From: Nitrospira sp.
GTDB taxonomy: Bacteria > Nitrospirota > Nitrospiria > Nitrospirales > Nitrospiraceae
NCBI GenBank assembly: GCA_024760545.1
Contig: CP060501.1
Location: forward strand, 2,682,036 to 2,746,035
DNA: 64,000 bases
Reading direction: 5' to 3'
How positions within the stretch are numbered: position 1 is the first letter of the stretch; each line of letters starts with the position of its first letter. Shown here one piece after another: positions 28,725 to 33,201 of this stretch. The translations under genes were made by a program, and so were the position numbers. The notes below the pieces were generated by a model, which did no database searches, was not told where the DNA came from, and saw only the letters and a list, made by a program, of their open reading frames with translations.

Positions 28725-29219
28725 TCATCTCGTCCATGTGACCCGCACGAACTCCTCACCTTGATCGTAACGCAGCTCCAGCTCACCGTGATGTGCATGC
28801 TTCAAGGCCTCGCCGATGCGTCTGGGCAAATGAGTGTCGGTCGTGGAAATAACGAGGCCTTCGGGTTCAGTTTCGATCGACATGATTCGAGACAGAGGGT
28901 GTTCCCTGTTTTCTCTTTCCTCCGCATTCTTCACCAGGCCGATGACTTGTTCATGTTGCATGTCCTTGAAACTGCCTTTAAGCGTGACTAAACCTTTGGG
29001 ATACTTGTCTCGGATTCGCATGCAGGCAGGGCAACTGATTTCATCGGCGTCTGCCGGCTTCGCGCCCCAAGTCCACCGTCCCTTATGATACAGAGCCCCG
29101 CAGTCGATACAGACTGTGGGCTCCTTGAGTTTCCCACGCAGTTTATAGGTGTCGTGCTGATACTCCTGGACGGTCCGGTCGTGTCGAGCCCCCAAGCCTG
29201 CCTTCGTTTTCGCGGTCAT
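28725..29219 (-). CDS. Zn-ribbon protein, BCAM0308-like
   Basis: 164 residues with a four-Cys zinc ribbon: CIDCGALYHKGRW and CPACMRIRDKYPKG, followed by an alpha/beta domain ending in ELRYDQGEEFVRVTW. The layout resembles the BCAM0308 family, which has no known function but tends to occur with stress genes. AAGGGAG precedes the ATG by five bases. The second half (TDTHLPRRIGEALKHAHHGE) recalls RNA-binding folds, a weak inference. Confidence 0.65.
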   Translation of the reverse strand: MTAKTKAGLGARHDRTVQEYQHDTYKLRGKLKEPTVCIDCGALYHKGRWTWGAKPADADEISCPACMRIRDKYPKGLVTLKGSFKDMQHEQVIGLVKNAEERENREHPLSRIMSIETEPEGLVISTTDTHLPRRIGEALKHAHHGELELRYDQGEEFVRVTWTR

Positions 29220-30126: not shown

Positions 30127-30600
30127 TCAGGTCACCTTGACTTCGATCGCCTTGGGTTTGACCTTTTCAGACTTCGGGAGATGAATCTTGAGCACGCCGT
30201 CCTTATACTCCGCCCCAACTTTGGTGCCGTCCGCATCCTCCGGTAGGGTAAAGCTCCGTACGAAGCTTCCATAGGCGCGCTCGACTCGGTGATATTTCTT
30301 GTTCTTCTCTTCCTTCTCGTACTTTCGTTCTCCCGTGATGGTCAGGACATCGTCATGCACATTCAACTTGATGTCTTCTTTCTTCATTTCTGGAATTTCG
30401 GCCTTGATAAGGTACTCCTTGTCATCTTCGGAGATGTCCACCAACGGCGACCACTCCGCGACGGTGATGGCCTCGTTCTTATCGCCGCCGGTGGCAACCG
30501 GTGAACGACCGAAGAAGCTTGAAAGTCGTTTCTCCATCTCTTCAATTTCTTTGAATGGGTTCCAACGCGTCGTCGGTTCCCATCGTGTCAATCCGCTCAT
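30127..30600 (-). CDS. Small heat-shock protein Hsp20
   Basis: 157 residues. The alpha-crystallin domain spans ~50-145 (WSPLVDISEDDKEYLIKAEI, DVLTITGERKYEKEE, the ADGTKVGAEYKDGVLKIHLP end), with a short C-terminal KPKAIEVKV tail. It binds unfolding proteins without ATP. AAGGAGG lies 8 bases before the ATG at 30600 but only 2 before the ATG at 30606, so 30600 is chosen. It is the first gene of a seven-gene minus-strand operon. No CIRCE element or convincing sigma32 promoter was seen upstream. Confidence 0.93.
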   Translation of the reverse strand: MSGLTRWEPTTRWNPFKEIEEMEKRLSSFFGRSPVATGGDKNEAITVAEWSPLVDISEDDKEYLIKAEIPEMKKEDIKLNVHDDVLTITGERKYEKEEKNKKYHRVERAYGSFVRSFTLPEDADGTKVGAEYKDGVLKIHLPKSEKVKPKAIEVKVT

Positions 30601-30785
30601 GACCATTGCCTCCTTGTGTAATTTAAGCTCAGATGCCTACTCCGATGCTGGTGCATTGACAGTGCCAGTGTTCAAGGTGTCCTCAAAGGGTCTAATGAAA
30701 ATGCGGTGTTGCAGTCACAGGTAGATTTCAGCCCGGCCGAAAAGGAGAGAATTCTGTAGCATTAGGGGGCAGTGGTCTCTACGGG

Positions 30786-30809
30786 GCTGTTGCCTCTTTC
30801 AACAACAGC
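30786..30809. repeat. 7-bp inverted repeat in the hsp20 / Zn-ribbon divergent gap
   Basis: GCTGTTG (30786-30792) and CAACAGC (30803-30809) are perfect complements with a 10-nt loop. The repeat lies in the 302-bp gap between hsp20 and the small Zn-ribbon gene and could be an operator or a leader hairpin. Confidence 0.4.
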
Positions 30810-30902
30810 TAACGAACATAAATGCTGAAACAAGGTTGAGTTACTTCCGCTGGTGAATCCTTTTCTGCACTGTCGGCTCTTAGCAGACCAGGAGGGATCT
30901 AT

Positions 30903-31130
30903 ATGACCAAGAGTATTGCGGGGACGAAGAACATTCAGAATGATCACTGCTACCGCTGCGGCGGTCTCATGGTGCCGGAGAAAGTGTTCGAAATCGGTTC
31001 GTTCGATTGGCACTGTGTCAGCTGTGGCGAGCGAGTGGATCCGGTGATTCTTGCCCATCGCCGGAGAGACCTTGGGAGCGGAGAGGCCGACAAACTGTTT
31101 GCCGGAAAAGGAAAGGCATGTCTGAACTAG
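30903..31130 (+). CDS. Small zinc-ribbon protein
   Basis: 75 residues with two CxxC knuckles, DHCYRCGGLMVPE and WHCVSCGERVDP, separated by 18 residues: a treble-clef or ribbon zinc site. CAGGAGGG precedes the ATG. No DNA-binding domain is added; it may be a small regulator or assembly factor, but no function is assigned. It is upstream of the structured RNA region and its transcript may extend into that region. Confidence 0.72.
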   Translation: MTKSIAGTKNIQNDHCYRCGGLMVPEKVFEIGSFDWHCVSCGERVDPVILAHRRRDLGSGEADKLFAGKGKACLN

Positions 31131-31224
31131 CTGCCCGGGTTTCCTGATGTCCTATTCTGGGATAGGCAGTTGGGGATGAGGCATCTTGCCTGTCTTGATT
31201 TCAATGAAATCACACCTACCTAGG

Positions 31225-31508
31225 AAGTGAAGGAGGTGGGGTGAGCCTAGAGAGGTCGTCAGCCTCAGGTATTTGACCGGCTCGTGTGTAGCCCGCGTGC
31301 AGAGGGGGCGCGGGCGCTGTTTCCAAAGCGGGGTCAAGGTTCAAGGGACGCGCTATCAGTCGTCGGTGCCACTAGGCATGGCTGTGGATGCGAGCTGTAA
31401 GAGAGTGAGGCGCGGGGCAATCGGCCTTAAGCGAGTGAAGGAGTGCCGAACGTGATTCCGGTCAGAGAACGGCCCCCCGTGGTTCCACACAAGGGCGGGC
31501 CATTTTTT
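31225..31508 (+). ncRNA. Candidate structured RNA upstream of the hydrogenase locus
   Basis: No ORF of quality exists here, but several nested stems do. TTGACC (31273-31278) pairs with GGTCAA (31332-31337) and encloses GCCCGCG (31291-31297) / CGCGGGC (31309-31315) and GCT (31316-31318) / AGC (31327-31329), giving a three-way junction. GTGCC (31366-31370) / GGCAT (31375-31379) follows with an ACTA loop. The stretch closes with an intrinsic terminator. It does not show the conserved parts of RNase P RNA, tmRNA, 6S or SRP RNA that I know. It could be a new small RNA or a structured 3' end of the Zn-ribbon transcript. The 5' boundary is a guess. Confidence 0.45.
31471..31508 (+). terminator. Intrinsic terminator
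   Basis: GGCCC (31471-31475) pairs with GGGCC (31497-31501), with CC (31477-31478) / GG (31494-31495) inside a C:C mismatch. The stem is followed at once by ATTTTTTC. This is the clearest rho-independent terminator seen in the window. Confidence 0.65.
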
Positions 31509-32058
31509 CACATGTGTTCGTACAGGGGAAGAGCTTGTTTCAAGCCCTCAGCGTCCCAACAAATAGGTCTCCAAAAGACGTCAACAATACCTCGTGGATT
31601 ACATCTGTTCGGGGAAGGTCAAAGGGGAAATAAAACGGGAGCGGAGCCGGGTCTAGAGAGCTCGTTTCTACTTGTGGGGTCTTGGAGGGGTTTTAGGCTT
31701 CCCACCTTCGGTGGGCCTGCTCACCGCCCCAGCACTCGACCTCATCTTCTTGACTGTTCCTCTCACCGAGGCCTCCGCTCAATTACAAGATAACCCCCCT
31801 TTCCACATAATCAATCGCCGTTTGCTCGATCACTGAGTTTGGCAGAGACCATACGCCTGGCAGCGAGCATCTGAGGGAAGCTCACGGAAACGCTCCGATT
31901 GGCGAGGAAGGTGGCCAAGCTGGAACCGCTCGTGTGCGTCAAAGTGTAGCCGTACATGCCTGATTTCCCGCCTTGCACGGAAGGAAGAGAGTTCGTACGA
32001 TGGCGGTGAAAAGGATTATCCTGCCTGTCGCGGAGTGAGCTGGGATAGGTGTCGTGCA
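31509..32058. other. Gap of 550 bp before the hydrogenase operon
   Basis: No supported gene. Two further small stems are visible: GTCT (31567-31570) / AGAC (31576-31579), and CCCAC (31701-31705) / GTGGG (31711-31715) around a CTTCG loop. A 48-codon minus-strand frame (31957-31811, begins MYGYTLTHTSGSS) has no SD and no known family. The hydrogenase promoter should lie near the right end but was not recognised. Confidence 0.5.
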
Positions 32059-33201
32059 ATGGCCAGTGAGACATGTGGCACCCTGCCAAGAGCTGATCTC
32101 CAACGATTGCTCGACGTCTTGAGCGCGAAGGGGTATCGAGTTGTCGGGCCTACCGTTCGAGATGGGTCCGTTGTCTGGGATACGATCAGGCTGGCGTCGG
32201 AACTGCCGAACGGCTGGCGGGATCAGCAGGAACCGGGCCGCTATCGGTTGGAACAGACCGGTTCCAACGAAATCTTCGGTGTTGTTCATGGACCGCAATC
32301 GCTGAAGCCTTTCGTCTTTGCGCCAAGGGAACCTCTCTTACAGATTGAGCGGAGCAATCGGGAATTCGACGCTCGTCCGATACTTCCTCACACGGAGAAA
32401 GTGGCAGTCATTGGGGCTCGCGCTTGCGATCTCGCCGGTCTAGCCATCCAAGATCGGATTTTCTTACATGACTCGTATCGAGACCCTTACTATGCGAGTC
32501 GTCGTGAAGGGCTCTTCGTAATCGCCGTGAACTGCACGAGAGCACTTGCGACCTGTTTTTGTGCATCAATGGAGACCGGTCCTTGTGCCAAGCACAGCTT
32601 CGATCTCGCTTTGACTGAAGTGGACGACATGCTGCTGATCGAAGCCGGCAGTGATGCCGGGTCCGATCTTCTTTCTGGCCTCCTCTTGTCTGCTGCCTCA
32701 TCACAGTTGATCGATGAAGCCGCGACGCGCGTGGATGCTTGCGGGCATAGTCAAGTCCGACGGCTGGATCACTCACGCTTACCGCAAGCCCTCTACGATG
32801 CCCATGAGCATCCACGATGGGATAAGGTCGCGGGACGGTGTCTTGCCTGCACGAATTGCACGATGGTCTGCCCGACCTGCTTTTGCCATGCAATCGAGGA
32901 GACTCCGGACCTCTCGCATCAACAGACCGCGCATGCCAGATTGTGGGATTCCTGCTTCACTCAGGAGCACGGCTTCATCCACGGCAAGAACATTCGTCCG
33001 ACGATCAAAGATCGCTATCGGATGTGGTTGACACATAAGCTCGCCTCCTGGATCGATCAATTCGGCATGTCCGGCTGTGTCGGCTGCGGCCGATGCATCA
33101 CGTGGTGTCCGGTCGGGATCGATTTGACCGAGGAGTTGCCGGCGTTGCTGACACCGGGTACCCTGTCGTCGGTCACTAGCCAACAGGTAGAAGGTACGTA
33201 G
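32059..33201 (+). CDS. hydB: Group 3b [NiFe]-hydrogenase beta subunit
   Basis: 380 residues. Two ferredoxin-type clusters lie in the C-terminal third: CLACTNCTMVCPTCFC (~262) and CVGCGRCITWCPVGID (~339). The N-terminal part (EKVAVIGARACDLAGLAIQD) matches the beta chain of Pyrococcus-type sulfhydrogenase. It conducts electrons between the small subunit and the flavin subunit. A GTG at 32035 adds eight residues; the ATG at 32059, after GGATAGGTG, is preferred. It opens a plus-strand operon in the typical beta-gamma-delta-alpha order. Confidence 0.92.
   Translation: MASETCGTLPRADLQRLLDVLSAKGYRVVGPTVRDGSVVWDTIRLASELPNGWRDQQEPGRYRLEQTGSNEIFGVVHGPQSLKPFVFAPREPLLQIERSNREFDARPILPHTEKVAVIGARACDLAGLAIQDRIFLHDSYRDPYYASRREGLFVIAVNCTRALATCFCASMETGPCAKHSFDLALTEVDDMLLIEAGSDAGSDLLSGLLLSAASSQLIDEAATRVDACGHSQVRRLDHSRLPQALYDAHEHPRWDKVAGRCLACTNCTMVCPTCFCHAIEETPDLSHQQTAHARLWDSCFTQEHGFIHGKNIRPTIKDRYRMWLTHKLASWIDQFGMSGCVGCGRCITWCPVGIDLTEELPALLTPGTLSSVTSQQVEGT

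Follow-up and report, generated by a model that had tools for sequence, protein, structure and literature searches.

Examination of a 64,000-nucleotide stretch of Nitrospira DNA (hereafter the window) points to a real, apparently undescribed RNA gene family of Nitrospira-type bacteria. Its representative, which we call RNA A, is predicted to be an independent non-coding RNA gene, equipped with a sigma-70-like promoter of its own, a conserved fold and a terminator, and is probably a new stress-regulatory RNA. It occupies a gap bounded by a 75-amino-acid frame (30903-31130) and by hydrogenase genes starting at 32035; a second putative RNA gene, RNA B or 6S-2, shares this gap. A blastn search with 510 bases around the element against 59 related genomes uncovered strong homologues and placed the limits of homology at approximately 31224 and 31510. 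These limits, and the covariation described below, bore out the initial annotation, which had proposed a structured RNA in this stretch of the plus strand, with approximately these ends and a terminal T6. The 5′ end of RNA A was deduced from the promoter and the 3′ end was placed at the T run. The relevant features are the following.

31228-31508, plus strand: RNA A, approximately 281 nt (from homology limits, the 30-copy alignment A4 and covariation)
31195-31222, plus strand: putative RNA A promoter, with TTGATT at 31195-31200, a 16-nt spacer and TACCTA at 31217-31222
31232-31236, plus strand: GGAGG in the unpaired 5′ leader, found in 38 of 46 copies
31277-31288, plus strand: 5′ arm of the closing helix P1 (from covariation)
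31488-31499, plus strand: 3′ arm of P1, also the 3′ arm of the terminator (from covariation)
31329-31460, plus strand: core used for covariance model R1, comprising P4, P5, P6, P7 and P9
31329-31336 and 31453-31460, plus strand: helix P4 (from the fold of alignment A4, as are the next four)
31339-31342 and 31448-31451, plus strand: helix P5
31349-31358 and 31406-31414, plus strand: helix P6
31364-31370 and 31375-31381, plus strand: helix P7
31416-31422 and 31441-31447, plus strand: helix P9
31503-31508, plus strand: T6 run, read from the sequence; T runs are present in most copies

The suggestion that the RNA belongs to no known family also held. Rfam gave 0 matches at the gathering score in the 64-kb window, and a scan of 30600-32100 with E values up to 5 returned no same-strand match covering RNA A, the best match falling on RNA B. 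Neither scan identified RNase P RNA, tmRNA or SRP RNA; ARAGORN found no tmRNA, and the 6S model RF00013 did not match RNA A at E up to 5. When 16 further RNA A loci were compared with Rfam at E up to 0.5, none of the matches lay on RNA A, and the one 6S match coincided with the RNA B position. Sub-threshold matches to Plastid-ycf2, HTT-AS1_1, v-snoRNA, H19, mir-2518 and TB9Cs4H1 were treated as chance or tRNA antisense. A full-text literature search, with most subscription papers outside its coverage, retrieved no paper on RNA A or on any Nitrospira regulatory RNA.

A covariance model of the core, R1, for which 27 copies were used, detected RNA A in 38 of 79 genomes of the genus; a search with the copy from genome G034 gave matches in 37/79, with two in some of them. 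Across the phylum, R1 was positive in 59 of 395 genomes; the positives represent 13 genera of a single family, and one genome (G408) contains five matches. An exact degenerate pattern, which would miss more divergent relatives elsewhere, identified 26 stretches among 84,980 species genomes, all titled Nitrospira, Nitrospirae or Nitrospirota; the same pattern had no match in viral contigs. The evidence for RNA A as a gene family is firm. Another genome of the window's species carries a second RNA A and 6S-2 pair on another contig (locus L084, G091:C7:131400-143700); this pair was not found in the window's genome and represents a strain-variable copy. In three genomes of genus g12, two RNA A paralogues lie approximately 16-18 kb apart (L170/L171, L172/L173 and L184/L185). 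The paralogue designated 'b' in this genus is divergent, retains the promoter, the leader and the closing helix, and has no 6S-2 alongside.

The promoter layout TTGA[TC]-spacer-TA/TTA was found in 43 of 46 full-length RNA A copies, as compared to 0.56 expected from mononucleotide shuffles. This set comprises the copies with at least 70 nt of upstream sequence; L083 was dropped, as were matches that had E > 1e-5, covered the model only in part or had too little upstream sequence. We infer that RNA A is transcribed from this sigma-70-like promoter. Searching the window's own genome for a regulon sharing the exact promoter pattern TTGATT-N11-GTGMTTA gave 0 matches, the window's own RNA A promoter deviating from that pattern. 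Just upstream, the 75-amino-acid frame (plus strand) contains CxxC pairs and has no match in Pfam or NCBIfam. A C-terminus resembling, by eye, that of its product stands upstream of RNA A in locus L014.

The GGAGG motif in the leader raises the question of an interaction with ribosomes. A leader peptide was rejected, as no start codon position or frame is common to the 46 copies. That 38 of these have GGAGG with no conserved start codon behind it, and that several divergent copies retain it, would fit an RNA that binds ribosomes in dormancy, its leader mimicking a Shine-Dalgarno sequence and occupying the 3′ end of 16S rRNA. However, the exact motif is missing in 8 of the 46 copies and no other ribosome-directed feature was found in RNA A; we consider this explanation improbable.

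The fold was derived from alignment A4, composed of 30 full-length copies (the set excludes L083, a near-identical copy from the same species, and copies that were shorter or found later). The consensus has 62 pairs, 22 of which show changes on both sides. Two-sided changes occur in 76 cells against 19.0 ± 5.2 in shuffled alignments, and in 22 pairs against 11.2, figures that overstate independence to the extent that the structure comes from the same alignment and the copies are related. None of 500 shuffles reached any of five measures, and sliding the partners as a control lowered pairing to 35-46% of cells. The test on aligned homologues proposed with the initial annotation disclosed conserved pairing, in 96.5% of 1847 pair cells, a level attained by 0/500 shuffles. 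Three or four pairs with two-sided changes are found in each of the helices P1, P4, P6 and P9. In outline, RNA A forms a rod, an internal loop between P3 and P4, and then a branched core. The plus strand was identified as the RNA strand because G-U pairings, for example that of columns 62/295 (U-G in 15 of the 30 copies of A4), would be A-C on the opposite strand. Thermodynamic stability was uninformative, with minimum free energy z-scores of -0.40 for 31225-31508 and -1.02 for 31272-31508.

Two helices drawn initially from the window's sequence did not withstand this comparison. A stem between TTGACC (31273-31278) and GGTCAA (31332-31337) can form in the window but is kept in only 76.1% of cells over the 30 homologues. 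A 7-bp GC stem (31291-31297 with 31309-31315), likewise present in the window, is kept in only 71.9%, one of its pairs being found in the window alone (1/30). Covariation supports different partners: the end of TTGACC belongs to P1, and GGTCA belongs to P4, pairing with 31453-31460. As to the terminator, the T6 end stood; the partner that covariation assigns to the 3′ arm is 31277-31288, the distant strand of P1, rather than that of a local hairpin (GGCC/GGCC, 31471-31501, plus strand). The 3′ strand of the terminator thus pairs approximately 200 nt upstream and runs into the T run. P1 is paired in 98.6% of cells, with 4 pairs changed on both sides; the local hairpin is kept in 87.4%. Because this fairly well-kept hairpin competes for the 3′ strand of P1, the 3′ end of RNA A could have two states. 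The hairpin may be an alternative pairing to P1, and the two together a possible switch or a hand-over during transcription.

Nearly invariant sequence is found in several unpaired segments, namely the leader GAAGGAGGTG, the segment following the P1 5′ arm, AAGGGA before P6, and the P9 loop GCGACTGAAGG. Since the leader and the P9 loop are unpaired and conserved, and the gene lies among stress genes (see below), RNA A could be a trans-acting antisense regulator of stress mRNAs, repressing or activating them by base-pairing, for instance through one of these two segments. We think this unlikely. Conservation extends over helices, junctions and several loops rather than a single seed, and the leader, purine-rich and similar to a Shine-Dalgarno sequence, would find its complement in pyrimidine-rich sites rather than in ribosome-binding sites. 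A protein-bound RNA fits better than a simple antisense RNA because several of its unpaired segments are almost invariant.

Clues to what such a protein might be come from RNA B.

31629-31786, minus strand: RNA B (6S-2), predicted 6S RNA paralogue with closing stem, bubble, terminal arm and T-rich end
31787-31814, minus strand: putative RNA B promoter, with TTGATT at 31814-31809, a 16-nt spacer and TATCTT at 31792-31787

The promoter has the same layout as that of RNA A and is kept in most copies. A blastn search with 31600-31830 found RNA B conserved in 50 of 79 genomes of the genus. The consensus fold of 36 sequences consists of a 9-bp closing stem, a wide unpaired centre and a terminal arm. 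Covariance model R2, built from these 36 copies, matches the window copy (C1:2713664-2713821) with 159.8 bits, as well as the other 6S RNA of the genome (C1:3176896-3177059; 57.2 bits, E 3.8e-10). The latter match covers the full length, positions 1-161. The same result was obtained with R2 in L032, and similar lower-scoring matches occur in most genomes of the genus. We accepted RNA B as a 6S RNA because R2 finds the genome's other 6S copy over all 161 positions; RNA B is predicted to be a second 6S RNA, distinct from the one at C1:3176896-3177059. The Rfam 6S model is simply weak in the Nitrospira lineage: RF00013 has a match in 68 of 76 genomes of the genus and exceeds its cut-off in 1/76, and RNA B orthologues of L205, L208 and L209 score 28.8-30.3 bits, below the cut-off of 46.4. 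LPR10 (RF02824) was considered as an identity for RNA B, with 29.3 bits at 31650-31718 (minus strand) and up to 35.5 bits in L135, against a cut-off of 69. This reading was dropped as 6S explains the data better, the L135 match also being at the 6S-2 position. LPR10 (Legionella RNA 10) may itself be 6S-like.

RNA A and 6S-2 are arranged tail-to-tail in the window and their transcripts do not overlap (31508 versus 31629). To follow this arrangement, 80 loci were scanned (two sets, of 40 and 20, retrieved for RNA A and a further 20 retrieved for 6S-2). They contained 61 RNA A matches at E ≤ 1e-5, a count that includes fragments, second matches per locus and the same-species L083 and L102. In 49 cases 6S-2 was found in the same locus, 43 times downstream and convergent, five times upstream on the same strand and once upstream and opposed. 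The remaining 12 matches were not accompanied by 6S-2; contig ends truncate some of the loci concerned. Among the RNA A copies flanked on either side by 2.5 kb of sequence, 40 out of 45 have 6S-2 within 2.5 kb (39 out of 44 without L222, which had been fetched for its 6S-2). Among 110 genomes of the family, 51 had both RNAs, 8 RNA A only, 13 RNA B only and 38 neither (Fisher p 5e-11, kinship ignored; an RNA B-type match was called when the best E value fell below 1e-18, a threshold set here). As 12 of the 61 matches and 8 of the 59 positive genomes lack 6S-2, RNA A does not strictly need it.

The convergent order of 43 of the 49 pairs might suggest that RNA A regulates the adjoining 6S-2 gene or its RNA, as an antagonist or through convergent transcriptional interference. 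We view this as slightly less credible still than ribosome binding. The transcripts are separate in the window, gene order differs in 6 of the 49 pairs, and RNA A copies without 6S-2 persist. No specific pairing between the two RNAs was apparent either: RNAduplex, which ignores internal structure, gave -117.0 kcal/mol with the own partner and -116.6 kcal/mol with foreign ones over 16 pairs, a result that counts little for or against pairing.

The genes around RNA A and 6S-2 suggest when the two RNAs might be used. Over 56 loci, the gene families found repeatedly in the vicinity of RNA A are universal stress proteins (24), malic enzyme (18), phosphoribosyltransferase (17), PolX (15) and Hsp20 (12). 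In the window, the setting comprises a lxa_BCAM0308 family protein, a universal stress protein, Hsp20 and hydrogenase.

28728-29219, minus strand: lxa_BCAM0308 family protein, which marks a gene island of the low-oxygen-activated type (NCBIfam equivalog NF040826.1, 212.4 bits, cut-off 100)
30130-30606, minus strand: probable Hsp20 small heat-shock protein (the orthologue L083:6872-7348 is PF00011; the window protein scores below the small heat-shock cut-offs)

An orthologue of the first protein (L091:10723-11220) matches Pfam NMD3 with 39.4 bits, a domain family whose name comes from a factor for ribosome export and which is encountered here in a bacterial stress island. The window genes downstream of RNA A resemble sulfhydrogenase subunits, with scores below curated cut-offs. 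In describing RNA A as lying upstream of a hydrogenase locus, the initial annotation was right about position only: the convergent 6S-2 gene intervenes, and the downstream genes differ elsewhere. For these two reasons RNA A is not the leader of a hydrogenase operon. More generally, its terminator end and, in the window, its position ahead of the hydrogenase genes could be taken to indicate a cis-acting leader, riboswitch or attenuator. Synteny disfavours this possibility, which we rate as the most remote of those considered: downstream genes vary, the next feature is usually the convergent RNA, and 18 loci have the malic enzyme gene upstream instead, mostly close by. Conservation of the island bears also on whether RNA A and 6S-2 might be carried by, or form part of, a mobile or selfish unit. 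The occurrence of up to five copies per genome (G408), the patchy presence and the extra copy with its own 6S-2 in the same-species genome, absent from the window's genome, could be explained in this way. Yet most copies occupy the same syntenic island across genera, the exact pattern had no match in viral contigs, and no transposase or integrase family recurs among the neighbour families scanned, making such a unit very improbable.

Judged from its predicted genes, the RNA A/6S-2 island demonstrably resembles the low-oxygen-activated (lxa) locus of Burkholderia. The latter is described as containing six universal stress proteins and a heat-shock protein (PMC6127331). Universal stress proteins, a heat-shock protein and a BCAM0308-family protein are common to the B. 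cenocepacia locus and to the RNA A island. Unlike the island, the lxa locus has no RNA A as searched, the exact-pattern scan having matched only Nitrospira or Nitrospirota records. In Nitrospira marina at low oxygen, universal stress proteins were among the most strongly raised proteins and the group 3b hydrogenase was also raised (PMC8115632). Because of the lxa-like island and these N. marina responses, expression of RNA A and 6S-2 at low oxygen or starvation is likely, going by the neighbouring genes only. The RNA A promoter is sigma-70-like, with no regulator site shown.

Taken together, these observations lead us to favour, tentatively, a stress RNA that acts by binding protein, the transcription machinery being its most likely point of action, together with 6S-2. 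In the scheme we propose, RNA A would be transcribed from its own promoter, and the 3′ arm of the terminator would close the molecule with a segment approximately 200 nt upstream. Shortage of oxygen or energy would bring about the joint production of RNA A and 6S-2, and RNA A would act in trans by binding a protein, with the rigid rod, the branched core and the invariant loops as contact surfaces. RNA polymerase, which 6S RNA is known to target, would be the best candidate for this protein. We place RNA polymerase first because of the link to 6S-2 and because other lineage-specific polymerase-binding RNAs exist. The more specific idea that RNA A is a further polymerase-controlling RNA, which with its dedicated 6S-2 retunes transcription when oxygen runs out, possibly via the switch between P1 and the local hairpin, is doubtful.

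6S RNA restrains RNA polymerase. RNA A shares with 6S RNA (SsrS, RF00013) a closing stem formed from both ends, a long rod and a stress setting, and has a 6S paralogue, RNA B, as its direct neighbour. It differs in length (approximately 281 nt against 160-200) and in its branched core, and it is matched by neither RF00013 nor R2. Ms1 of Actinobacteria is an RNA polymerase-binding RNA of approximately 300 nt, unlike 6S and linked to a HAD hydrolase gene (PMC9130861). RNA A resembles Ms1 in being structured and in having a fitting length, RNA polymerase being for RNA A a hypothetical target. Ms1, from a different phylum, is a 6S-related rod with two extra end hairpins that binds the RNA polymerase core. 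CoRP of Corynebacterium is a lineage-restricted polymerase-binding RNA that is not a detectable 6S or Ms1 homologue (PMC11077062). At 516 nt, cleaved and again from another phylum, it differs from RNA A and serves as a precedent, with no homology claimed. Legionella pneumophila 6S2, an additional 6S copy accompanied by an RNA from the opposite strand (PMC3048289), is the comparator for RNA B, which has the same two properties. In Legionella the other RNA overlaps 6S2 as an antisense, whereas RNA A is predicted to be a separate, non-overlapping, structured gene.

RNA A constitutes a new family. By type it is one of the large, structured regulatory RNAs of bacteria, and its partner is unusual. 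Nitrospira are major nitrifiers that live across oxygen gradients, and an RNA present in approximately half of the sampled genomes of the genus and tied to a second 6S would offer a handle on the shutdown and restart of slow growers. The alignments, coordinates and models R1 and R2 suffice for scanning existing Nitrospira RNA-seq data. Should RNA A indeed bind RNA polymerase, the few such RNAs on record (6S, Ms1 and CoRP; PMC11077062) would gain a further member, and the RNA A/6S-2 pair would make testable why some bacteria keep two 6S RNAs.
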